Of a DNA stretch of 48,099 nucleotides, positions 6,756-26,477 are shown piece after piece (the first letter of the stretch is position 1; every line of letters begins with the position of its first letter). Position numbers and translations under genes: made by a program. The notes under the pieces were generated by a model, which saw only the letters and a list, made by a program, of their open reading frames with translations, was not told the DNA's origin and ran no database searches. Source of the stretch: Plectonema cf. radiosum LEGE 06105 (GTDB lineage: Bacteria; Cyanobacteriota; Cyanobacteriia; Cyanobacteriales; Nostocaceae); assembly GCF_015207665.1 (NCBI RefSeq), contig NZ_JADEWL010000044.1, forward strand, positions 1-48,099, in the 5' to 3' direction.

Positions 6756-9092
6756 ATGAATCCAAGTCGCTATACTGCTTCCAGTAATAATACTCCTCAA
6801 ATTGATGCTCCGTTTGAGCGAATTGTGCAGTCTATGGCGCAAATTATTTGGTGTGCGAATCGGGATGGACAAGCTACTTATTTCAATCAACAATGGTACC
6901 AATTAACTGGATTAGATGAAAATCAATCTTTGGGTTTAAATTTTCTCCAAGCTGTTGATTCTCAACAACGCAATGGAGTTTCTCAATCTTGGTTTTCGGC
7001 GATAAACAGACAGCAATTATGGAAATATGAGTTCATAATTATACATCAAGATAATCAAGCTCATTGGTATGCAGCTACTGGTCAGCCTTGTTTTGATGAA
7101 TCTGGAGAAATAATTGAATGGGTAGTAGTTTGTCAGAATATTGACGAATATAAGAATATAGAAACTGAATTAAAACAGCAACAAGTAAGTCAAAAAGTAA
7201 ATTTAGAAATTCAAAAATACTTTGAAAGACTAACCTTAGCGTTAGATGCTGCTAAGATGGGTTCTTGGCATTGGGATTCATTTACTAATAAAAATTTATG
7301 GACTCCTTACCATGATGTGATTTTTGGTTATGAACCGGGTAATGGAGAACATACTTATGAAGATTGGGTTTCTCGCGTTCATCCGGATGATTTAGCGTTA
7401 GCTGAGTCTGCTTGGAAAACTGCTTTACGAGAGCATAAAGATTATGCTTGTGAGTATCGCATAGTTTTACCCGATGGTAGCGTCCGCTGGGTTGAATCTT
7501 ATGGTCGTTACTATTATGATGACGATGGTAAAGCTTTGCGGATGGCTGGGACTGTCATTGACATTAGTGAGCGTAAAAAACAGCAGCAGGCTTTACAGGA
7601 AAGCGAACGTCGTTACAGTACTTTAGCTCAAATTTCCCCGGTTGGTATTTTTCGTTGCGATACTTCAGTAAATTTACTTTACGTAAATCAACGGTGGTGT
7701 GAAATTACTGGGTATAGTTTTGAGGAAGTAATTAACCAAGAATGGCGACAAATAATTCATCCAGAAGACATAGCACGAGTCGAAGCAGAAGTAAAACGTA
7801 CTATACAGGATAAAATACCCCTTGAATGCGAGTTTCGCTTTCAGCGTCCCGATAAATCTCTAGTTTGGGTATTCACTCAATCGGTTGCGGAAATGAATGC
7901 GGATGAAGTTGTTATCGGTTATGTAGGTACTGTTACTGATATTACTCAGCGGAAACAATGGGAAGAAGCATTACAAGAAAGTGAAAAACGTTTTCGTTCA
8001 ACTTTTGAACAAGCAGCAGTGGGTATTGCTCATGCAGATTTAAGCGGTAAATTTATCCGAGTTAATCAGAAATTGTGCGATATTTTGGGTTATAGCCGCG
8101 AGGAGCTTTTACAATTCAGATTTCACCAAATTACTCATCCAGATGATTTACGAAGCGATTTAAAAAAAGTCCGCGATTTGCTTGCAGGTAGAACTGAAAA
8201 TTTCTCGATGGAGAAGCGCTACATTTGTAAAGATGGTTCTGTAATTTGGGTAGAAATAACGGTTTCCTTCGTCTGTCAACCAAATGGTTCACCCAAATAT
8301 TTTCTCAGTGTGATTCAAGATATTAGTGGGCGCAAACAGGTGGAAACTCAATTACAACTGCGAGCGCAAGAGCTAGAGGAATTAAATATATTATTAACCG
8401 ATACTACAACAAAATTAAGAAAACGTAACTCGGAATTAGACCAATTTGCTTATATTGCATCCCACGATTTAAAAGCACCTTTAAGAGCGATCGCGAATCT
8501 TTCACAATGGTTGGAGGATGATTTATCGACAGTACTCGAAGCAGAAAATCGTCGTTACTTAGAGTTATTGCGTCAACGAGTATACCGGATGGAAGCTTTG
8601 ATTAATGGTTTGCTACAATATTCTCGTGTCGGACGTATTGATACTGCTAAAGAAATAGTCAATGTTGGTCAGCTTTTAGAAGAAATAATTGAGGATATTG
8701 CACCACCAGAAAATTTTACAATTGAAGTAAAACATCCTATGCCGATTTTGAATACTAAGGGTATGATGTTGAGACGAGTATTAAGAAATTTAATTGATAA
8801 TGCAATTACTCATCATCATGGTGGCGAAGGTCATATTAAAATATCTGTAGAAGATAAGGGTGAATTTTATGAATTTGCAGTATCAGATGATGGGCCGGGC
8901 ATTTCTCCGCAATATCACGATAAAATATTTGTAATTTTCCAGACTTTGCAAGCTCGCGATCAAAAGGAAGGTACGGGAGTCGGTTTATCGATTGTCAAAA
9001 AAATTTTGGAAAGTCAAGGAGCTACAATTACTGTAGAATCTGATGTGGGAAAAGGTTCAACTTTCCGTTTTAACTGGCATAAGTCATCATAA
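6756..9092 (+). CDS. Four-PAS sensor histidine kinase
   Basis: Soluble 778-residue sensor kinase without membrane segments. Four PAS domains lie at about residues 22-130, 155-270, 283-400 and 408-530; the second is PAS_3-like (HPDD, VRWVESYG, DISERKKQQ). The dimerisation/phospho-acceptor domain follows with H570 in ASHDLKAPLRAI. The catalytic ATPase domain has N box NLIDNAITHH, G1 DDGPGIS and G2 GTGVGLSIV. The H-box style is that of cyanobacterial phytochrome-type kinases, which signal to Rcp1-like receivers, and one is encoded at 11065. The next kinase begins 3 nt after the stop, so the two are co-transcribed and possibly coupled. No chromophore cysteine or flavin motif is evident, so the ligand is unknown. 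Confidence 0.93.
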   Translation: MNPSRYTASSNNTPQIDAPFERIVQSMAQIIWCANRDGQATYFNQQWYQLTGLDENQSLGLNFLQAVDSQQRNGVSQSWFSAINRQQLWKYEFIIIHQDNQAHWYAATGQPCFDESGEIIEWVVVCQNIDEYKNIETELKQQQVSQKVNLEIQKYFERLTLALDAAKMGSWHWDSFTNKNLWTPYHDVIFGYEPGNGEHTYEDWVSRVHPDDLALAESAWKTALREHKDYACEYRIVLPDGSVRWVESYGRYYYDDDGKALRMAGTVIDISERKKQQQALQESERRYSTLAQISPVGIFRCDTSVNLLYVNQRWCEITGYSFEEVINQEWRQIIHPEDIARVEAEVKRTIQDKIPLECEFRFQRPDKSLVWVFTQSVAEMNADEVVIGYVGTVTDITQRKQWEEALQESEKRFRSTFEQAAVGIAHADLSGKFIRVNQKLCDILGYSREELLQFRFHQITHPDDLRSDLKKVRDLLAGRTENFSMEKRYICKDGSVIWVEITVSFVCQPNGSPKYFLSVIQDISGRKQVETQLQLRAQELEELNILLTDTTTKLRKRNSELDQFAYIASHDLKAPLRAIANLSQWLEDDLSTVLEAENRRYLELLRQRVYRMEALINGLLQYSRVGRIDTAKEIVNVGQLLEEIIEDIAPPENFTIEVKHPMPILNTKGMMLRRVLRNLIDNAITHHHGGEGHIKISVEDKGEFYEFAVSDDGPGISPQYHDKIFVIFQTLQARDQKEGTGVGLSIVKKILESQGATITVESDVGKGSTFRFNWHKSS

Positions 9093-9095
9093 ATA

Positions 9096-10892
9096 ATGCC
9101 CCAACTCAATTTTTTGAGAAAAATAACTACTATTTGGCACTCTTTACCCATACGCTATCGTGGTGCAATTATTATTGCTTTACCCTTTTCTTGTTTAATA
9201 TTTACTTTATTTGCTTCAGTTTGGTCAAAAGAAAATTCTCTGGCAATTTATCAGCGAATTGACCATACAAAAACAATCATTTTAGATAGTAACAGACTAC
9301 TGGGAATATTATTAGATGCCGAAACGGGTAGTCGTGGATATGCAATCTCTCAAAATAAAAATTTTTTAGAACCATATAATCAAGCGATTCAAAAATTACC
9401 GGAAATCCTTAATCATTTAGAACAAAACTTGTCCAATCAAGCTCAAATAAACAGATTTAAAATTATTGAAAATTTAGCGCAGCAAAACATCACTATTCTA
9501 GAGCAAAGAATAGCAGAAGTTGACCGAAAAAAGCAAAATAATATCCCCCCATCAGCAGATATTTTGCTTTATCAAGGCAAAGATGTCATGGATAATATTC
9601 GCAGGGAAATTAATGCTTTTCAGGAAGAAGAATTACGTCAATTAGATATCTATCGTCAAGAATTAGATGATATTAGCGATAAAAATAATCTAGTTTTATG
9701 GATTACCCTGGCAATTAGTATAGCGAGCTATATAGGAACAATTTATTTATTCAGCAAGCTGGATTGGCAAATCGCAGGACAACAATTACAACTCCAAGGA
9801 AAGAAAAGCTTGCTTAAAGGAATCATGGAGAATGTTGTAGATGGAATTATTACTTTAGATAAACAAGATAAGATTGATAGTTTTAATCAAGCAGCAGTAA
9901 CCATGTTTGGTTATCCATCAGAAGAAGTAATCGGGGAAAAAATTAATTTATTAATTCCAGAAATTAATCAAACTGAAAAAGACCAATTTACTAATACTAT
10001 TTCTGCAACTCACCAAAGTTTACCAATGTATATGGAGGGGAATCGTCAAGTAGGAGCAAATTTTCCTGTAGAAATATCTATTAGCAACTTAGAAAATGGT
10101 CAAGGTAAAATGGTAATTGTTCGGGATATTACTGAACAAATGCAAATTCGAGAAAAATTAGAAGCCAACGTTCAAGAATTATCTCGATTGAGTTTATTAT
10201 TAGCAAATACTAATCAAGCTTTAACTGAACGCAATCAAGAATTAGATAACTTTGCTTACATCGCTTCTCACGATTTAAAAGCACCGTTGAGGGGAATTAG
10301 AAATCTTTCTCAATGGTTAGAAGAGGATATCAAAGATGATTTAGCACCGGAAAATCAGCAGCAGCTAGAACTTTTAAGAAAACGAGTTTACCGTATGGAA
10401 GCTTTGATTGATGGTTTACTCGAATATTCGCGGGTAGGAAGAATTGAAATTGCTCGCGAAAAAGTTGATGTTAACGAACTTTTAGCCGAAATTATCGATT
10501 CTCTTAATCCCCCAGCCACATTCAACATCCAAATTTCTGGGGAAATGCCGGTATTTATAACCAAAAAATTACTTCTGAGTCAGGTATTTGCCAATTTGAT
10601 TAGTAATGCTATCAAACATCATCCCCGCAATAATGGTAATATCAGTATTTCTGTAGAAGACAATGGCGATTTTTATAAATTTGCCGTTGCTGATGACGGT
10701 TGTGGTATTGACATCCAACATCAAGATCGGATTTTCGGTATTTTTCAAACCCTTGAATCTCGCGATAAAAAGGAAAATACCGGCGTTGGTTTATCTATTG
10801 TCAAAAAAATTATTGAGTCAGAAGGCTGTAAAATCATCTTGGATTCTGAGTTGGGTAAAGGAGCAACTTTTCGTTTCACTTGGTTGAAATAG
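9096..10892 (+). CDS. CHASE3-PAS membrane histidine kinase
   Basis: Membrane sensor kinase of 598 residues. TM1 is at about residues 22-44 and TM2 at about 198-221. They flank a helical extracytoplasmic domain with the CHASE3 signature (LLDAETGSRGYAIS). A PAS domain (about 240-350) and the kinase core follow: H392 in ASHDLKAPLRGI, N box NLISNAIKHH, ADDGCGI and GVGLSIV. The kinase core is closely related to those of the genes at 6756 and 21858, so these are paralogues with different input modules. It starts 3 nt after the preceding kinase gene and is followed by an Rcp1-like receiver at 11065. The stimulus is not deducible. Confidence 0.93.
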   Translation: MPQLNFLRKITTIWHSLPIRYRGAIIIALPFSCLIFTLFASVWSKENSLAIYQRIDHTKTIILDSNRLLGILLDAETGSRGYAISQNKNFLEPYNQAIQKLPEILNHLEQNLSNQAQINRFKIIENLAQQNITILEQRIAEVDRKKQNNIPPSADILLYQGKDVMDNIRREINAFQEEELRQLDIYRQELDDISDKNNLVLWITLAISIASYIGTIYLFSKLDWQIAGQQLQLQGKKSLLKGIMENVVDGIITLDKQDKIDSFNQAAVTMFGYPSEEVIGEKINLLIPEINQTEKDQFTNTISATHQSLPMYMEGNRQVGANFPVEISISNLENGQGKMVIVRDITEQMQIREKLEANVQELSRLSLLLANTNQALTERNQELDNFAYIASHDLKAPLRGIRNLSQWLEEDIKDDLAPENQQQLELLRKRVYRMEALIDGLLEYSRVGRIEIAREKVDVNELLAEIIDSLNPPATFNIQISGEMPVFITKKLLLSQVFANLISNAIKHHPRNNGNISISVEDNGDFYKFAVADDGCGIDIQHQDRIFGIFQTLESRDKKENTGVGLSIVKKIIESEGCKIILDSELGKGATFRFTWLK

Positions 10893-11064
10893 TCGATAGA
10901 ACATTTGTACATCATCCGATAGGTATAGATGATTTGAGAGCAAATCCTCACTATTGGTCAAACACCGCCGTTCAACTATCAGCTTACAATTCATAAAGGC
11001 ACGACTTTTAGAATGCTCTATATTATTTTTAAATAAGCATTTAAAGGATTTATCAAAAACTACA

Positions 11065-11505
11065 ATGCAGGAAAATGACAGGATTGTAAATGTCTTACTT
11101 GTGGAAGATGACGAAGTAGATATTATGAACGTGGAACGAGCCTTCAGAAAGGCTAATGTTAAGAATCCACTTTACATAGCTAGAAACGGTATAGAAGCAC
11201 TAATAATGTTACGTGGAGGTAGTGAAGAGCTTTTAGAGATTCCTCACGAACGTCGTTTAATTTTATTAGATATTAATATGCCTAAAATGAGTGGCTTAGA
11301 ATTTTTACAGACATTACGTGCTGATAAAAATTTAAAATTAACCCCAGTTGTAATGCTGACAACATCAAATCAAGATAGAGACATGATAGAAGCATTTGAT
11401 TTGAATGTCGCTGGCTATCTTTTAAAACCAGTAACTTTTTCGGAATTCGTTGATCTAATCAAAACTCTTAATAAATATTGGTCTTCGTCAGAAATGCCGA
11501 ATTAA
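11065..11505 (+). CDS. Rcp1-like single-domain response regulator
   Basis: Receiver-only protein of 146 residues. The frame is open from 10954, but the ATG at 11065 fits the family start. It has acidic residues E14-D16 (LLVEDDEVDI), phospho-acceptor D69 (LILLDINMPKMSG), conserved T in VVMLTTSNQDRD and K in GYLLKPVTF. The double-acidic EDDEVD motif, long alpha2-beta3 loop (GGSEELLEIPHERR) and C-terminal LNKYW are typical of Rcp1, the cognate regulator of the cyanobacterial phytochrome Cph1. Its location after two kinases with phytochrome-like cores makes it their likely phosphate acceptor. It has no DNA-binding domain. Confidence 0.92.
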   Translation: MQENDRIVNVLLVEDDEVDIMNVERAFRKANVKNPLYIARNGIEALIMLRGGSEELLEIPHERRLILLDINMPKMSGLEFLQTLRADKNLKLTPVVMLTTSNQDRDMIEAFDLNVAGYLLKPVTFSEFVDLIKTLNKYWSSSEMPN

Positions 11506-11821
11506 TTCAATTCAATTCAATTATTTTAATTTAACTATTTTAAATTGATGTTTTAACTTAATCATCTTAAACAAATAAAAAATTTTATTAGAGAAAATTA
11601 AAAAATATTATATTTATTTTTTACTTACTTAATCAGTAGATTATCATATATAAGTTAAATTTGTAAATATATAACAAGTAGTAGATAGTCGGAAATTTAT
11701 TATACAAGAGATGAAGCGATGAAGCTAAAAGTCCATAACTATAGTAAGAACTCGACTAATAAAATATATAGATACAGTAAAAAAAACTTGTCCTTTTAAG
11801 CTTGTTGCTTTTTTCAAGTCT
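11506..11821. other. AT-rich intergenic gap, 316 bp
   Basis: No gene found. Very AT-rich, with a short ATTCAATTC direct repeat just after the upstream stop. It probably holds the promoter for the receiver-kinase gene at 11822, but no convincing promoter elements were recognised. Confidence 0.5.
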
Positions 11822-13069
11822 ATGGAAGAAAACCTCAAAATTTTAATTATTGATGATGATGAAGTAGACCGTATGGCTGTGAGTCGTGCTTTAAAAGCAG
11901 CAGGAATAAAAATGAACCTGTTTGAAGCAAGCGATTATTCAGGAGCCTTTGAAATATTAGCAGAAAATGAGTTTGACTGTATCTTTGTAGATTACCTTTT
12001 ACCAGGGAAAGATGGGTTAGCCTTAGTCCAAGAAATACGGACTTCAGGTTCTAAAGTACCGTTAATAGTTTTAACCGGACAAGGAGACGAACAAACTGCG
12101 GTTCAATTAATGAAAGCAGGTGCTTCCGATTATATTACCAAGTCGAGAATTACTCCCGATTTACTAAGTGCGACTTTAAGAAATGTAATTCGTCTTTATC
12201 AAGTTGAATTACAGATTTGTCAAAGTAAATTAGAGATAGAGTCTTATAATCAGCGATTAAGAGAAAGTAATGAACAATTGAAGAAAAAAAATAAAGAATT
12301 AGAGGAAAAGAAAGAACAAATTCATTTACAAAATCTCAAGTTATTAGAAGCTTCGGAAACAAAATCTAAATTTTTAGCAACAATGTCTCATGAATTGAGA
12401 ACTCCGTTGAATGCGATTATGGCATTTTCGCAAATGTTGCAGCGCAAAAACAAAGATAACTTTTCTACTTCTCAGTTAGAGATGATACAAAGAATTCACA
12501 ATAATGGGAAAAATTTACTTGCTTTAATCAACGATATTCTTGATTTATCCAAAATTGAAGCAGTAGGATTACAATTAAATCCTGAAGAATTAGATTTATC
12601 TTTGTTAATTGCTAACACTGTCGATGAATTACGCTCTTTAAAAGCACAAAAGAATTTAGAATTAGATGTTAAAATAAATTTGCAAAATACCAAGATAATT
12701 AATGATAAAACCCGTGTTCGCCAAATTTTAGTAAACTTGATTTCTAATGCAATTAAATTTACCGATGAAGGAATGGTTTCCATCGAAGTAAAAGAAATAT
12801 CAGATACTCATGTTGCTATTTTTATAAAAGATACTGGTATTGGAATTTCTGCAAATGATATGAAGCATATTTTTGAACCGTTCCGGCAAATTAATCAATC
12901 AATTTCGCGTAAATATGGTGGTACAGGATTGGGTTTAGCAATCACTCAATCTTTAATCAAAATGATGAATGGTCATATTTTAGTTGATAGCGAATTAGAT
13001 AAAGGTTCGACGTTTCGAGTTGAACTACCACGTTGTATTCAAGTGGAATCGTTAATTGGGAATGGGTAA
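11822..13069 (+). CDS. Receiver-histidine kinase hybrid
   Basis: 415 residues with an N-terminal receiver (about 1-125; D11-D13, phospho-acceptor D57 in IFVDYLLPGKDG, K in ITKSR), a charged coiled coil (about 130-185) and a classical HisKA domain with H190 (MSHELRTPLNAI). The ATPase domain has N box NLISNAIKF, DTGIGIS and GGTGLGLAI. There is no sensor domain or membrane segment, so the receiver is the input and the protein probably relays phosphate or is gated by an upstream kinase. The stop codon falls inside a GGGTAAT repeat, so the last residues (IGNG) are repeat-derived. It may form a relay with the next gene. Confidence 0.92.
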   Translation: MEENLKILIIDDDEVDRMAVSRALKAAGIKMNLFEASDYSGAFEILAENEFDCIFVDYLLPGKDGLALVQEIRTSGSKVPLIVLTGQGDEQTAVQLMKAGASDYITKSRITPDLLSATLRNVIRLYQVELQICQSKLEIESYNQRLRESNEQLKKKNKELEEKKEQIHLQNLKLLEASETKSKFLATMSHELRTPLNAIMAFSQMLQRKNKDNFSTSQLEMIQRIHNNGKNLLALINDILDLSKIEAVGLQLNPEELDLSLLIANTVDELRSLKAQKNLELDVKINLQNTKIINDKTRVRQILVNLISNAIKFTDEGMVSIEVKEISDTHVAIFIKDTGIGISANDMKHIFEPFRQINQSISRKYGGTGLGLAITQSLIKMMNGHILVDSELDKGSTFRVELPRCIQVESLIGNG

Positions 13070-13147
13070 TTGGTAATTGGTAATAGGTAATGGGTAATTG
13101 ATAATTGGTAATTGGTAATGGGTAATTGATAATTGGTAATGGGTAGT
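13052..13147. repeat. GGTAATT/GGTAATG heptamer tandem array
   Basis: About 13 units of the GGTAATT/GGTAATG/GATAATT heptamer, the reverse complement of the 6576-6732 family. The array starts within the last codons of the upstream kinase and supplies its TAA stop. Confidence 0.88.
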
Positions 13148-13223
13148 TAATCCGTGAAATCAGCGCAATCTCTTTTAATCCCTAGTCGGGAATTTATTTT
13201 ACAGATAATTTATAAATAAAAAC

Positions 13224-14333
13224 ATGATGTCTTATAACAAATTACAAAAAAAAGACCGTATCTTAGTAGTTGATGATATTTTTGATAACTTACTAGTCAT
13301 TCAAACTATTTTAGAAGATGAAGGATATGAAATTGAAATTCAAGAAGATAGTAAAATAGCCTTAGCTATGGTCGAAGAATCTCCACCAGATTTGATTCTT
13401 TTAGATGTAATGATGCCGGAAATGGATGGTTATGAATTTACCCGTCGTATCCGCCAAAATCAAAATTTGCCATTTATTCCCATCCTCTTAATTACCGCTC
13501 ATGATAGCACCAGCGCAGTGGAAGGATTGGATGCAGGTGCGGATGATTTTATTCACAAACCAGTGGATGCTGATGAACTTCAAGCGCGAGTACGTAGCCT
13601 TTTACGTCTTAAACATAGTATAGATGAACGCGACCATATGGCGAGTTTGCGTCAAGATTTTGTTTCCCGCTTTACCCACGACCTCAGAACACCATTAGCA
13701 GCTTCTAATCGCGTTTTAAAATTATTGCGTGAAGGTAAATTTTTTGAAGTACCTCCAGCAGTTGAACAGATATTTAGCACCATGATTACTAGTAATGATG
13801 ACTTGCTACACATGGTAAATAGTTTGCTGGAAGTTTATCGTTATGAAGCTGATTGTAAACAAATTAATTTCGATAAAATTAATATTACCGATTTAATTCA
13901 TGATGTAGTTCAAGAATTAACTCCTTTGGCAGAAGAAAAAGAATTAACATTGAAGGTAAATTTATGCGATGAAAATTTAGCAGATAATGAATTCACCATT
14001 ATTGCAGACCGGATCGAAATTAAAAGAGTTTTGACTAATATAATTGGAAATGCAATTAAATTTACAAATCAGGGATTTATCGAAGTAAGTTTACAGATGA
14101 ATTCCGAAACAGCAGAAATCAAAATTAAAGATACAGGAAGCGGAATTTCATCAGAACAACAAGCAATCTTATTCGAGAGATTTCGACCCGGTAAAAACAA
14201 AAATTCCGGTAGTGGTTTAGGACTATATCTATCGCGTTGTATTATTGAAGCACACCAAGGCTCGATTAATGTAGAATCCGAACCAGGTAATGGAAGTTTA
14301 TTTATCATTAATTTGCCGTTAGAAGTTAGTTGA
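13224..14333 (+). CDS. Receiver-histidine kinase hybrid
   Basis: 369 residues. The receiver is at about 10-130 with D17-D18, phospho-acceptor D61 (LILLDVMMPEMDG) and K in FIHKPVDADE. The HisKA domain follows with H152 (FTHDLRTPLAAS), then an ATPase domain with N box NIIGNAIKF, DTGSGIS and a short GSGLGLYLS G2 motif. It is cytoplasmic, with no sensor domain. There are two adjacent ATGs (13224, 13227); the first is kept but either is possible. Tandem receiver-kinases behind an Rcp1-like receiver suggest a phosphorelay, but direction and partners are inferred. The TGA stop lies inside a GTTGACA repeat tract. Confidence 0.91.
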   Translation: MMSYNKLQKKDRILVVDDIFDNLLVIQTILEDEGYEIEIQEDSKIALAMVEESPPDLILLDVMMPEMDGYEFTRRIRQNQNLPFIPILLITAHDSTSAVEGLDAGADDFIHKPVDADELQARVRSLLRLKHSIDERDHMASLRQDFVSRFTHDLRTPLAASNRVLKLLREGKFFEVPPAVEQIFSTMITSNDDLLHMVNSLLEVYRYEADCKQINFDKINITDLIHDVVQELTPLAEEKELTLKVNLCDENLADNEFTIIADRIEIKRVLTNIIGNAIKFTNQGFIEVSLQMNSETAEIKIKDTGSGISSEQQAILFERFRPGKNKNSGSGLGLYLSRCIIEAHQGSINVESEPGNGSLFIINLPLEVS

Positions 14334-20486: not shown

Positions 20487-20669
20487 TTAGTCAATTGCTT
20501 TTTTAACTTTGTCTTTTGCATTCTCGACTGTGTGACGCGCTTCTGCTTCAGTTTGTTTAGCTTTTCCTTCAGCTTGATCTTCGGTATCTCCGGTCATATT
20601 ACCCATTGCTTCTTGAGCTTTACCTTCGATATTTTTAGCAGTTGCTTTTGCTTTATCTTCTGTACTCAT
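20487..20669 (-). CDS. CsbD-like stress protein
   Basis: A 60-residue, highly charged, hydrophilic protein rich in Ala, Lys, Glu and Thr. It has the CsbD-family pattern: KATAKNIEGKAQEAMGNMTG followed by AEGKAKQTEAEARH. CsbD proteins are abundant after general stress in many bacteria; the mechanism is unknown and the protein is probably disordered. An AAGGGG ribosome binding site lies before the ATG at 20669. It extends the stress-gene group of this region. Confidence 0.92.
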   Translation of the reverse strand: MSTEDKAKATAKNIEGKAQEAMGNMTGDTEDQAEGKAKQTEAEARHTVENAKDKVKKAID

Positions 20670-21178: not shown

Positions 21179-21382
21179 TTACTTGCGATAAACCGAACGA
21201 AACAAAGAATCGAAAACGTCGGCTTGATTAACTTGCTCTAATGCCCTAAAACTGATGATATCTCCCACATTAAGGATAATATTACCTTGTTTGTCGCGAA
21301 CAGTTCGTTTAACTGGATAGCCTAATATGGCTTTGATCTCTTTATCTTCCCGAATTTGATCGATATTTCTAGAATTAACCAT
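21179..21382 (-). CDS. Small protein of unknown function
   Basis: A 67-residue protein without a signal peptide or membrane segment. The central stretch (GYPVKRTVRDKQGNIILNVGD, given here as GYPVKRTVRDKQGNIILN) looks like a short beta hairpin of PRC-barrel or SH3-like style, and the C-terminus is helical. No family recognised. The ribosome binding site is weak. Amino-acid composition and isolated position support a real gene, with moderate confidence. Confidence 0.65.
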   Translation of the reverse strand: MVNSRNIDQIREDKEIKAILGYPVKRTVRDKQGNIILNVGDIISFRALEQVNQADVFDSLFRSVYRK

Positions 21383-21857: not shown

Positions 21858-24800
21858 ATGCTCCCAATTACAGCGAATCTTTTAGCAATTGCTTCCTTTA
21901 TGCCTCATGGTACCTGCTATCTTTGGAAACCTGGATTAGTGGGACTACATTTGGTGAGCGACGCTGTTACTGCTTTATCTTATTTTTCTATTCCTGTAAC
22001 CCTTATATATATTCTTCGCAAACGAGCGGATATCCCCTTTAACGGGATTTTCTGGCTATTTGCTAGTTTTATTATTTTTTGCGGTAGCGGACATTTGATG
22101 GATATCTGGACGTTATGGCATCCAGATTATTGGATTTCGGGTTATATTAGAGCAATTACTGCCATCGTCTCATTGATAACGGCAATTGCTTTAACTCATT
22201 TAATTCCGCAAATTTTAGCTTTACCAACACCTGAGAAATTGCAAGCGGAAATTCAAGCTAGAAAGCAGAACGAGCAATTTTTACGTAGTATTTACGAAGG
22301 GGTAACAGAGGCAATTTTTGTAGTTGATACTACACAACAAGGCGAATTTCTCTATACAAGTATTAATCCAGTGACTGAAAGGGTAATGGGGATGAGTTCC
22401 AAGGAAGTTCAAGGAAAAACTCCCGAACAAGTTCTACCCAATAACTCTGCAACAACGGTTCGAGAACGTTACAATCGCTGCTTGTCAACTGGGGAAAGTA
22501 TTACTTATGAAGAATGTTTAAAATTTAATGGCTCAGAAGAAGATTCTTGGTGGTTAACGAGCTTAAAACCATTGTATGACGAAGCAAATCAAATTTATCG
22601 GATTATCGGTACCAGCGTTAGTATTACCCAACGCAAACAAGCGGAAGCGCAATTACAAGAAAGTGAACGTCGTTTCCGAGCAATTTTTAATTCGATGTTT
22701 CAGTTTATCGGCTTACTGAAACCGGATGGTACTTTAGTCGAAGTCAATCAAACTGCTTTGGATTTCGGGGGAATAAGTAAAGAAGACGTAGTGAATCGAC
22801 CATTTTGGGAAAATTATTGGTGGACGATTTCTCCGGAAACGCAGCACTCATTACAACAAGCCATCGAAAAAGCTGCAAATGGTGAGTTTGTTCGCTATGA
22901 AGTAGATTTATTAGGTGCTGGGGATAAAGTGACGGCAATTGATTTTTCTCTCAAACCTGTATTTAACGAACAGGGAGAAGTAGAATTATTGATTCCCGAA
23001 GGCCGTGATATTACGGATAAAAAAGTGATGATTCAAGCGCTGCAAAAAAGCGAAGAACGTTGGCAGCTTGCTTTGCAAGGTACTGGAGATGGCATATTTG
23101 ACTGGAATATTGCTACTAACGAAGCTTTTTTCTCAACTCGATACAAAGAAATGTTGGGGTATGAAGATGGGGAAGTGGAAAACAGCTACGAAGGATGGGA
23201 AAATTTGATTCATCCAGAAGATGTTGAGTTAACCCAAGCAACTTGGAATGCTTACTTAAATCATCAAATTCCTCAGTATCAGGTTGAGTTTCGTTTACGC
23301 TGTAAAGATGGTAGCTACAAATGGATTTTAGCTCGCGGTATGGCTTTGTGGAATCAAATTGGAGTTGCAGTTAGGATGATTGGTTCCCACCAAGATATTA
23401 GCGATCGCAAAGCAGCGGAAGCGGAAATTATTCGTTTAAATCAAGAGTTGGAAGCACGAGTTAGACAACGAACAGCGCAGTTAGAAGAATCAAATCGACG
23501 TAAAGACGAGTTAATTGAAAGCGAGCAATCGGCAAGAGCAGAAGTCAAAATTTATGAGGATATTGTCAAAAGCATCCAAATTGGTTTGTGTATTTGGCAA
23601 ATGGATGATTTAAACGATATTACCAGTTTTCGGTTGGTAACTACTAATCCTGCGGCATCGCGAATGTTAGGTTTAAATATCCAAAATTATCTTGGTAAGC
23701 CAATAGAGGAATGTTTTCCTAATATGTTAAATGAAGAACATCTCATACAGTTACAGACTTATGCTCAAGTAGTTAAAACCAAGCAAGTGAAAGATTTAGG
23801 AGAATTTACCTACGGTGACGAGCGGATTAATAGTTCATTTTTTAAAGTAACAGCTTTTCCTTTACCAGGTAATTTAGTTGGTGTGGCTTTTGATAATGTT
23901 ACCCAACGTAAACGTATGGAAACAGCTTTAGCAGAAAGTGAACGGTTGTATCGTAATGTAGTTAACAGTGTTAAAGAAGTCGTTTTTCAAATAGATAAAA
24001 CGGGTTGTTGGACATTCTTAAGTGCAGCTTGGATTGATATTACTGGTTATAGTATCAAAGAGAGTTTATGCAAATACTTTGCAAATTTGATGTATGGGGA
24101 AGAAGAACAAATTAAGGGTAGAGAATTATTTGCATCAGTAATTTCAGGAAATGAAGAAAATTTTCAATATGAATTTCGCATTCTGACTAAAAATGGTGAT
24201 TTCCGTTGGTTAGAAATGTACGCACAATTAGAAACTAATTCCGATGATGAACAAATTGGCGTTTATGGTACCCTTAATGATGTTACCGAACGCAAGCAAA
24301 CGGAAGCTGTTTTACAATCGAGAGCTGATGAATTAGCTCAAATTAATTTGATATTGTTGCAAACTACCAGAGAGTTAGAAAAACGCAATAAAGAATTAGA
24401 CCAATTTGCTTATGTCACATCCCACGATTTGAAAGCACCCCTCAGAGCGATCGCAAATTTATCAGAGTGGATTGAGGAAGATTTACAAGAAGTATTAACT
24501 GAGGATACGCAAAAGCAAATGAACTTGTTACGGGGAAGAGTTCATCGTATGGAAGCTTTAATTAACGGACTTTTAAAATATTCCCGTATCGGAAGAATCA
24601 AAACTGAACCGGAAACAGTTAATGTTGGTCAACTTTTAACAGAAATAATTGACTCAATTGCTCCTCCCCAAGAGTTTACCATTGAGATTGTCGGACAAAT
24701 GCCCACCTTGGTGACAGAAAAAATTCCTTTACAACAGGTTTTTAGTAACTTAATTAGTAATGCTGTCAAACATCACCATCGCACGGATGGTAAAGTTACC

Positions 24801-25055
24801 ATTGAAGTCAAAGAACAAGATATTTTTTACGAATTTGCAGTTTCAGATAACGGTACTGGCATTGCAGAACAATATCATCAGAAAATATTTGTCATATTTC
24901 AAACTTTGGAAGCACGAGATAAGCAAGAAAATACTGGTATTGGTTTGGCTATAGTCAAGAGAATAGTTAACGAACTCGGAGGAACTATCAGCTTAGAATC
25001 GGAAGTTGGTAAAGGAACAACTTTCCGGTTTACCTGGCTGAAAAAAAGAATGTAA
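21858..25055 (+). CDS. Ethylene-receptor-like multi-PAS histidine kinase
   Basis: 1065-residue membrane kinase. The N-terminal ~125 residues have three hydrophobic helices with the ethylene-binding pattern. D35, Y42, C75 and H79 fall at the same spacing as D25, Y32, C65 and H69 of plant ETR1 (DAVTALSYFSIP ... FCGSGHLMDIW); C and H are the copper(I) ligands. About five PAS domains follow (approx. 145-255, 262-385, 390-515, 555-665, 670-795). The kinase core has H856 (TSHDLKAPLRAI), N box NLISNAVKHH, DNGTGIA and GIGLAIV. Synechocystis has a related receptor, SynEtr1 (Slr1212). Downstream is an Rcp1-like receiver, its probable partner. The core closely matches the kinases at 6756 and 9096. Confidence 0.93.
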   Translation: MLPITANLLAIASFMPHGTCYLWKPGLVGLHLVSDAVTALSYFSIPVTLIYILRKRADIPFNGIFWLFASFIIFCGSGHLMDIWTLWHPDYWISGYIRAITAIVSLITAIALTHLIPQILALPTPEKLQAEIQARKQNEQFLRSIYEGVTEAIFVVDTTQQGEFLYTSINPVTERVMGMSSKEVQGKTPEQVLPNNSATTVRERYNRCLSTGESITYEECLKFNGSEEDSWWLTSLKPLYDEANQIYRIIGTSVSITQRKQAEAQLQESERRFRAIFNSMFQFIGLLKPDGTLVEVNQTALDFGGISKEDVVNRPFWENYWWTISPETQHSLQQAIEKAANGEFVRYEVDLLGAGDKVTAIDFSLKPVFNEQGEVELLIPEGRDITDKKVMIQALQKSEERWQLALQGTGDGIFDWNIATNEAFFSTRYKEMLGYEDGEVENSYEGWENLIHPEDVELTQATWNAYLNHQIPQYQVEFRLRCKDGSYKWILARGMALWNQIGVAVRMIGSHQDISDRKAAEAEIIRLNQELEARVRQRTAQLEESNRRKDELIESEQSARAEVKIYEDIVKSIQIGLCIWQMDDLNDITSFRLVTTNPAASRMLGLNIQNYLGKPIEECFPNMLNEEHLIQLQTYAQVVKTKQVKDLGEFTYGDERINSSFFKVTAFPLPGNLVGVAFDNVTQRKRMETALAESERLYRNVVNSVKEVVFQIDKTGCWTFLSAAWIDITGYSIKESLCKYFANLMYGEEEQIKGRELFASVISGNEENFQYEFRILTKNGDFRWLEMYAQLETNSDDEQIGVYGTLNDVTERKQTEAVLQSRADELAQINLILLQTTRELEKRNKELDQFAYVTSHDLKAPLRAIANLSEWIEEDLQEVLTEDTQKQMNLLRGRVHRMEALINGLLKYSRIGRIKTEPETVNVGQLLTEIIDSIAPPQEFTIEIVGQMPTLVTEKIPLQQVFSNLISNAVKHHHRTDGKVTIEVKEQDIFYEFAVSDNGTGIAEQYHQKIFVIFQTLEARDKQENTGIGLAIVKRIVNELGGTISLESEVGKGTTFRFTWLKKRM

Positions 25056-25248: not shown

Positions 25249-25680
25249 ATGGAGGAAAAAATTTTAAATCTACTCCTGGTAGAAGATGATGAAGTAGATG
25301 TAATGAACGTCAAAAGAGCGCTAAAAAAGAATAATTTGAGAAATCCTCTTTATGTTGCTTGTAATGGAATTGAAGCATTAAAAATGTTGCGAGGTGAAAA
25401 TGAAACTTCTTTAAATATTCCTAAGCAGCGAAGAATCATTTTGCTCGATCTAAATATGCCTAGAATGGGTGGATTAGAGTTTCTTGAAGAGTTAAGAGCA
25501 GATGCCGATCTCAAATCAATACCAGTAATTGTATTGACAACTTCTGACGAAGATCGAGATAGAATCGAGGCTTATAATTTAAATGTAGCCGGGTATCTGT
25601 TAAAACCAGTAAATTTTTCCCAATTCATTGAAACAATGGCAACTTTAAATAAATATTGGATGTTATGTGAAATACCTTAA
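25249..25680 (+). CDS. Rcp1-like single-domain response regulator
   Basis: A 143-residue receiver-only protein with AGGAAAG upstream of the ATG. It has acidic motif LLVEDDEVDVMN, phospho-acceptor D67 (IILLDLNMPRMGG), T in VIVLTTSDEDRD and K in GYLLKPVNF, ending LNKYWMLCEIP. It is a clear paralogue of the regulator at 11065 and shares the Rcp1-specific long loop. Located about 190 bp after the ethylene-receptor-like kinase, it is its likely phosphate acceptor. No output domain is present, so it acts by protein contact or as a phosphate shuttle. Confidence 0.93.
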   Translation: MEEKILNLLLVEDDEVDVMNVKRALKKNNLRNPLYVACNGIEALKMLRGENETSLNIPKQRRIILLDLNMPRMGGLEFLEELRADADLKSIPVIVLTTSDEDRDRIEAYNLNVAGYLLKPVNFSQFIETMATLNKYWMLCEIP

Positions 25681-26057
25681 TCAGCCTGTGCTTTTTAAGG
25701 CTAAAGTACGCTAAAGTACACACAAAGGAACGCAAAATTTTTACTGGTATATTCTTAAATATTTTTAGAATCTTTTAGTATAATTTAATATAATAAAGTT
25801 GTGCATACCATCTTTTAAACTAAAAATATCTATCTATTTGTTGTCTAATCACACAAAATTTAGTTTATAATCGGAATGTGATTTCCGTTGTATTAGCTTA
25901 AATAATTCCTTTCCCTGTAATTAAAAGGCAAAGCATTAGTAAACTGATAGAAGGCAAGTTACGAGTCAATTCATCCACTTAAAGCTTGGTTTCGGCTGCT
26001 GGAGAAAAGCCTCGTCTGTGCTTAAGTATATAATCGATAGACTTTTAGGAGCAGACG
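25681..26057. other. Intergenic gap, 377 bp
   Basis: No gene found. AT-rich; a GTATATAAT stretch near 26028 could be a -10 region for the receiver gene at 26058, with TTAGGAG as its ribosome binding site. Neither promoter mapping nor a hairpin of note can be supported. Confidence 0.4.
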
Positions 26058-26477
26058 ATGAAAATGGAACTTGATGACAATGACAAACAGCAGCGTACTT
26101 CTCAGACTCCTCTGATTCTGGCAATTGAGGACAACGAAGATAACTTACTGATAGTAAATTATATCGTCGATTCTTTAAACTATAGATTTATTGGTGAACC
26201 AGACGGAAACAAGACGTTGCTAATTGCACGAGAATTTCAACCAAATTTAATATTATTAGATATCATGTTGCCAGAAGCAAATGGTATCGACCTTTTTCAT
26301 GTTCTGCGGCAAGATAGTTCAACAAAGCATATACCGATAATTGCGGTGACAGCTTTAGCAAGTGCTGAAGAAAAACACAAAATTCTAGAAGCTGGTTTCG
26401 ACGCTTATGTTAGCAAACCTTATATGCTTGAAGACATCGAAGAAGTGATTTGCCGTTACCTCAACTACAAAAGTTAA
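26058..26477 (+). CDS. DivK-like single-domain response regulator
   Basis: A 139-residue receiver with a short polar N-terminal extension. It has acidic pair E24-D25 (LAIEDNEDN), phospho-acceptor D68 (LILLDIMLPEANG), T in IIAVTALAS and K in AYVSKPYMLEDI. The sequence style is that of the DivK/CheY-like receivers used in phosphorelays, distinct from the Rcp1 type upstream. TTAGGAG precedes the ATG; a second ATG at 26064 is also possible. It converges tail to tail with the DUF2294 gene, with only 3 nt between them. Confidence 0.92.
   Translation: MKMELDDNDKQQRTSQTPLILAIEDNEDNLLIVNYIVDSLNYRFIGEPDGNKTLLIAREFQPNLILLDIMLPEANGIDLFHVLRQDSSTKHIPIIAVTALASAEEKHKILEAGFDAYVSKPYMLEDIEEVICRYLNYKS

Follow-up and report, generated by a model that had tools for sequence, protein, structure and literature searches.

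A candidate ethylene receptor kinase with five PAS domains and an adjoining Rcp1-type receiver in the cyanobacterium Plectonema cf. radiosum LEGE 06105

Comparison with known receptors

Among the matches listed, the nearest characterised receptor is AzoEtr1 of Azospirillum brasilense with its regulator AzoRRetr1. According to the published description (PMC11819568), AzoEtr1 is a protein of 525 aa composed of an ethylene-binding domain (EBD), one PAS domain and a kinase; it carries D35, C75 and H79, its binding of 14C2H4 was measured, and ethylene inhibits its signaling. AzoRRetr1, encoded just downstream, is given there as a single-domain regulator of 135 aa without an output motif. In Synechocystis, SynEtr1 (slr1212) bears an N-terminal EBD on a histidine kinase and binds ethylene, and Geitlerinema PCC 7105 is reported to have two such proteins, GeiEtr1 (EBD-GAF-kinase) and GeiEtr2 (EBD-PAS-PAC-GAF-kinase-receiver) (PMC6682694).

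The receptor gene described here lies in a window of 48,099 nucleotides (the whole stretch of DNA that was analysed) from Plectonema cf. radiosum LEGE 06105. Its open reading frame at 21858-25055 on the + strand has an ATG start and encodes 1065 aa, which the ORF list, Pfam and our own PAS profile divide into an EBD, five PAS domains and a histidine kinase. As far as AzoEtr1 is described, the two receptors share the type of layout, the residue numbers and an adjoining single-domain regulator; they differ in that AzoEtr1 is proteobacterial and has one PAS domain instead of five. The preliminary description of this locus had contrasted the receptor with SynEtr1 by PAS content and partner. The contrast is correct: SynEtr1 is described as having slr1213 for its regulator and as containing a cyanobacteriochrome domain, whereas the receptor here is followed by a single-domain receiver and has no GAF domain (no Pfam match at E up to 0.01). 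However, SynEtr1 is a poor yardstick of novelty, since AzoEtr1 is closer. A SynEtr1-like photoreceptor was ruled out, as no GAF or cyanobacteriochrome domain of the SynEtr1 type was found. At the loci that we take to be SynEtr1-like by their layout (L134, L156, L159, L161), the regulator comprises about 250-260 aa and is not a single receiver. LEGE 06105 resembles Geitlerinema PCC 7105, as reported, in having two EBD proteins in one filamentous genome, but the layouts differ: the second EBD gene of LEGE 06105, on another contig, is a short EBD-kinase with an open frame of 465 codons.

Phytochrome relays pair a kinase with a small receiver, as in Cph1-Rcp1, CphA-RcpA and CphB-RcpB. Their kinase core class and receiver class are those found here, whereas the receptor has no phytochrome photosensory module in Pfam. 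Among the matches listed in the open PMC literature, no paper describes an Rcp1-type receiver as the partner of an EBD kinase.

Occurrence and layouts of EBD proteins

The EBD family PF25487 was found in 47 of 60 relatives' genomes and, in a phylum-wide sample of 244 genomes, in 64, but in none of the 14 control genomes. Given the precedent of AzoEtr1 with AzoRRetr1 and the frequency of EBDs in cyanobacteria, the receptor class is known. EBD-PAS-kinase layouts are frequent in cyanobacteria. The 61 EBD ORFs in 60 sampled loci comprised 36 EBD-kinases without a receiver, 17 hybrids with one and 8 other proteins; by our PAS profile, whose model excludes GAF domains, 22 had no PAS domain and two had five. 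Outside the genus, five-PAS EBD proteins were found at L009, L113 and L132. The five-PAS layout is thus one of many.

An Rcp1-type single receiver stands beside six of the 61 EBD ORFs (L105, L118, L128, L133, L145, L149), the assignment being weak for L118 (44 versus 35 bits). Ten are accompanied by a larger regulator and eight by another receiver, PAS or kinase gene, and for the other 37 no receiver or kinase gene was found within 500 bp downstream (three of these lie at the end of the stretch). Further pairs of an EBD-kinase and an Rcp1-type receiver occur at L055 (Methyloversatilis) and L100. Two other layouts came to light. The gene at 4776-8345 of L016 joins an EBD, with S at the Y42 position, to PAS, GGDEF and EAL domains and is a candidate ethylene-controlled cyclic-di-GMP enzyme. 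At 7971-12089 of L014 a single chain carries two receivers and an Hpt domain in addition to EBD-PAS-PAS-GAF-kinase.

The ethylene-binding domain and its predicted copper site

The EBD comprises residues 14-122 (21897-22223, + strand). Pfam places PF25487 (ETR1_N) at residues 27-122 with E 7.5e-40 and a score of 135.6 bits (cut-off 27), and the model of the domain (pLDDT 86.5) has three long helices (25-55, 62-87, 91-120) and a following helix; the receptor thus begins with a three-helix EBD scoring above the family cut-off. In the alignment with ETR1 (E 9e-23, 34% identity) the two sequences run at an offset of 10. We take the ETR1 binding positions outside the copper site to be Y32, I35, P36 and I62. 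The absence of gaps claimed earlier holds for residues 27-97, but beyond these a gap of three residues occurs near the start of helix 3. As this gap comes only after residue 97, the gap-free offset covers all named residues.

Seven residues are described as required for ethylene binding by ETR1 (PMC6682694, PMC11819568), and Asp25, Cys65 and His69 are given as its copper site (PMC12643061). All seven positions are kept in the receptor: D35, Y42, C75 and H79, which had been pointed out before, and in addition I45, P46 and I72. Both copper(I) ligands, C75 and H79, were confirmed by the sequence alignment at the ETR1-equivalent positions. A chance likeness of the four residues first named was ruled out by the PF25487 score together with the full set of seven. 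No solved EBD structure was found by sequence search (one chance match, E 0.21) or by fold search at E up to 0.001. Among 123 distinct EBDs (133 found minus 10 second copies of a locus), cysteine and histidine are kept in 121 and all seven residues in 104. Eight have N at the D35 position, including L009 and L099, the latter a second copy of L013, and the EBD of L145 has A at the P46 position.

Within the genus, the EBD is conserved to the same degree as the kinase: identity is 0.852 with a median dN/dS of 0.136 for the EBD, and 0.850 with 0.109 for the kinase (7 genomes, 21 pairs; G002, which has only the gene end on a short contig, was left out). These values indicate clear purifying selection on the EBD.

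The proposed ethylene or copper input thus has strong support from the sequence, binding itself being predicted. The three membrane helices would form a Cu(I) site of C75 and H79 with D35, at which ethylene would be bound. By analogy with ETR1, SynEtr1 and AzoEtr1, ethylene binding may lower receptor output. Another interpretation is that copper or the redox state, and not ethylene, is what the membrane domain senses. The conserved residues form a predicted Cu(I) site, and Cu(I) alone is reported to rigidify ETR1 (PMC12643061). Yet the receptor retains all seven ethylene-binding residues and not just the copper ligands, and the bacterial EBDs of SynEtr1 (PMC6682694) and AzoEtr1 (PMC11819568) are described as binding ethylene. 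We therefore regard a pure copper or redox sensor as unlikely.

The PAS domains

Our own PAS profile found five PAS domains in the receptor, as had been described. They are PAS1 (residues 141-262; 22278-22643), PAS2 (270-392; 22665-23033), PAS3 (397-518; 23046-23411; followed by a long helix), PAS4 (562-688; 23541-23921) and PAS5 (692-815; 23931-24302), all on the + strand. Pfam agrees, with clear best matches at 150-261, 286-387, 424-510 and 697-809 and a weak one to PAS_8 for the fourth domain at 566-623. The full-length model has five PAS-like strand/helix units (about 152-255, 282-384, 412-513, 576-680 and 707-808); its quality is modest (mean pLDDT 67.5, pTM 0.27), and it served only for counting PAS folds. 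The signal from the EBD would run via a helix into these five domains, which may integrate other cues.

Among the PAS domains, conservation within the genus is highest for PAS2 (87% identity, median dN/dS 0.120, 15 pairs) and PAS3 (83%, median dN/dS 0.107), while PAS1, PAS4 and PAS5 show 75-79% identity. The receptor of Calothrix parasitica lacks exactly PAS2. PAS4 is the PAS domain in common with the short EBD-kinases of L012 and L013.

PAS2 matches PAS1 of the toluene sensor TodS with E 3e-32. The toluene pocket of TodS PAS1 is described as twelve contact residues (PMC4861429), nine of which are identical in PAS2, including all five named aromatics (F283, F316, W321, W322 and F363 in PAS2); I114, V126 and A145 of TodS are replaced by L, I and P. 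PAS2-like domains were found at 36 places in 16 of 21 genomes. In an alignment of the 13 of them in loci already read, which includes the window's own PAS2 (a row that enters the frequencies two times), conservation is 0.77 for the pocket columns and 0.73 for the rest. As the pocket columns barely exceed this background, a hydrocarbon ligand is a lead and not a result; PAS2 may perhaps bind a hydrophobic ligand. It would be a bold guess, and one we hold to be quite improbable, that the receptor is a two-input hydrocarbon sensor, in which ethylene at the Cu(I) site and, in the PAS2 pocket, a hydrocarbon of volatile or aromatic type both gate the Rcp1-type relay.

Kinase core and receivers

Pfam finds HisKA and HATPase_c in the C-terminal part of the receptor. 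The kinase core (residues 840-1062; 24375-25043, + strand) consists of a DHp domain with H856 and an ATPase domain with the N-box at 964, DNGTGI at 997 and GIGLA at 1027. Its motifs are complete and its best solved relatives are bacteriophytochromes, in accordance with the phytochrome-style core of the preliminary description. The PAS array would set the autophosphorylation of H856.

Downstream follows rr1 (25249-25680, + strand), a single-domain receiver with D67 and K119. Its best solved relative is 5te9 (9e-30), and RcpB, RcpA and Rcp1 are among the next matches (3.5e-23 to 8.8e-21), whereas the matches to canonical CheY chains are no better than about 1e-10; 5ic5 and 3heb, labelled CheY by their depositors, score better than the canonical chains. 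The Rcp1-like character of this receiver was thus borne out. A second single-domain receiver, rr2 (26058-26477, + strand), has D68 and K120 by Pfam and active-site check. On the + strand no terminator-like site was listed between the kinase and rr1; a single weak one lies between rr1 and rr2, at 25872. Promoter-like matches in the window were about as numerous as expected by chance (36 against 35.4), and no structured RNA matched Rfam there at gathering scores.

Neighbourhood of the receptor gene

The order receptor, rr1, rr2 on the same strand was found in six of seven genus loci (the window, L066, L068, L069, L070 and L071). Between the open frames, the gap from receptor to rr1 is 170-501 bp and that from receptor to rr2 848-1331 bp in these six. 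On the short contig of G002 (L086), rr1 and rr2 are present with the kinase end. In the seventh locus, L067 (same contig as L005), a full receptor is followed by a convergent transporter gene in place of both receivers, and the best rr1 match of that genome is only 65% identical and lies at another cluster.

Upstream, a divergent ORF of 67 aa (21179-21382, - strand) matches no Pfam family and is 62-100% identical in the six other genus loci; a gene for a CsbD-like stress protein lies at 20487-20669 (- strand). Two MpsC-family genes (PF10057; 26481-26873 and 27084-27521, both - strand) adjoin rr2, and the rr2-MpsC vicinity recurs in the genus. MpsC matches near rr2-family receivers also occur in L012, L088, L089, L093 and L094.

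An Rcp1 pathway had been suggested for this receptor. For it speak rr1 at six of seven genus loci and an EBD-less kinase paired with rr1 (L008, see below); against it, the receptors of L005/L067, L012 and L013 are not paired with rr1. The relay from the kinase to rr1 is thus supported, not proven, by the neighbourhood. Phosphate would pass mainly to D67 of rr1, with rr2 as a possible second acceptor. That rr1 is the sole partner has counter-evidence, since neither receiver is present at one of seven genus loci and rr2 alone accompanies two outgroup receptors. Alternatively, rr2 could be the cognate receiver, with rr1 inserted later between it and the kinase. The outgroup loci L012 and L013 each have an EBD-kinase containing one or two PAS domains and, after it, an rr2 orthologue (59% and 51% identity, respectively) but no adjacent rr1; rr2 is present in the six genus loci as well. 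However, rr2-family receivers also stand near rr1-family clusters at L087-L090 and L093, where no EBD gene was found in the stretch read, so that rr2 may be a passenger; these receivers lie beside MpsC genes in L088, L089 and L093, while no MpsC match was found near those of L087 and L090. Moreover, it is rr1 that adjoins the EBD-less kinase of L008. Hence we consider rr2 as the cognate receiver possible but doubtful, and rr1 remains the preferred partner.

Proposed origin of the relay

In a Microcoleaceae MAG, L008 encodes a presumably soluble kinase with a PAS domain followed by PAS2 to PAS5 and without an EBD, which is 56% identical to receptor residues 262-1062. Downstream of it, at a distance of about 0.2 kb, lies an rr1 orthologue (72.5%), after which comes a receiver ORF truncated by the contig end. 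As the PAS2-PAS5-kinase array and an rr1 orthologue occur there without an EBD, the ethylene head seems to have been set on an older relay. The facts fit an EBD-PAS1 head fitted onto an older pair of PAS-array kinase and rr1; the direction of this change we infer.

In the kinase tree, the cores of the genus EBD-kinases form a clade of their own (100/99), which includes the contig-truncated row L086, and the well-supported branches require the EBD label to change at least six times among the 38 rows. Kinases of this type have thus acquired or shed EBD heads more than once. This exchange, together with the existence of a similar chassis without EBD in L008, could mean that the EBD serves as a membrane anchor and contributes little to signaling, the real inputs being the PAS domains. 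Yet the EBD matches the kinase in its degree of conservation and surpasses PAS1, PAS4 and PAS5, and an anchor role alone would hardly preserve I45, I72, C75 and H79. We therefore consider a mere anchor very unlikely and keep to the EBD as the ethylene input.

In the poorly resolved receiver tree, the genus rr1 genes split into two groups without a supported branch uniting them, so that a single EBD-linked rr1 lineage is not demonstrated; these genes have no supported tie to L008 either.

The window contains a further, paralogous relay of five genes at 6756-14333 (+ strand), which comprises a PAS-kinase, a CHASE3-PAS-kinase and the Rcp1-type receiver rrU (6756-11505), then two receiver-kinase genes (11822-14333). 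Similar clusters occur in other genomes of the family. The receptor kinase as a recent copy from this upstream cluster was rejected, as the genus clade stands apart from the window's two other kinases. The 65% identity of rr1 and rrU (gene at 11077) and their linkage suggested that rr1 may be a recent copy of rrU; the receivers of L008 (72.5%) and L145 (70%) are nearer, and rr1 did not group with rrU in the poorly resolved receiver tree.

Having no output domain, rr1 probably relays the signal onward, perhaps to receiver-kinases like those at 11822-14333. In L145 the order is EBD-PAS-PAS-kinase, rr1-family receiver, receiver-kinase. In three genomes of the family (L087, L089, L090) a PAS-kinase is succeeded by an rr1-family receiver and this by two receiver-kinases, and the same row is visible from the rr1-family receiver onward in L088 and L093. 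Pairs of receiver-kinases after rr1-family receivers were found at nine loci altogether (L012, L087-L091, L093, L094, L101), with partial domain calls in L088, L093 and L101.

Conclusions

We consider it fairly probable that the protein is a bacterial ethylene receptor kinase in which an EBD with Cu(I) acts through five PAS domains on H856 and from there mainly on rr1, its EBD-PAS1 head having been joined to an older relay. Judged by its sequence, the receptor would be a sound but rather ordinary representative of a bacterial receptor class that is already known, and its reading as an ethylene receptor appears well founded. With it, a well-conserved candidate for an ethylene receptor is added for cyanobacteria of the Rivularia/Calothrix type. 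Independently of this, the TodS-like PAS2 offers a lead towards a second chemical input. The EBD-less relative with the same type of kinase and receiver suggests how an ethylene head plugs into an existing relay, and the two together form a testable pair, a receptor with and without the head and with the same receiver class.
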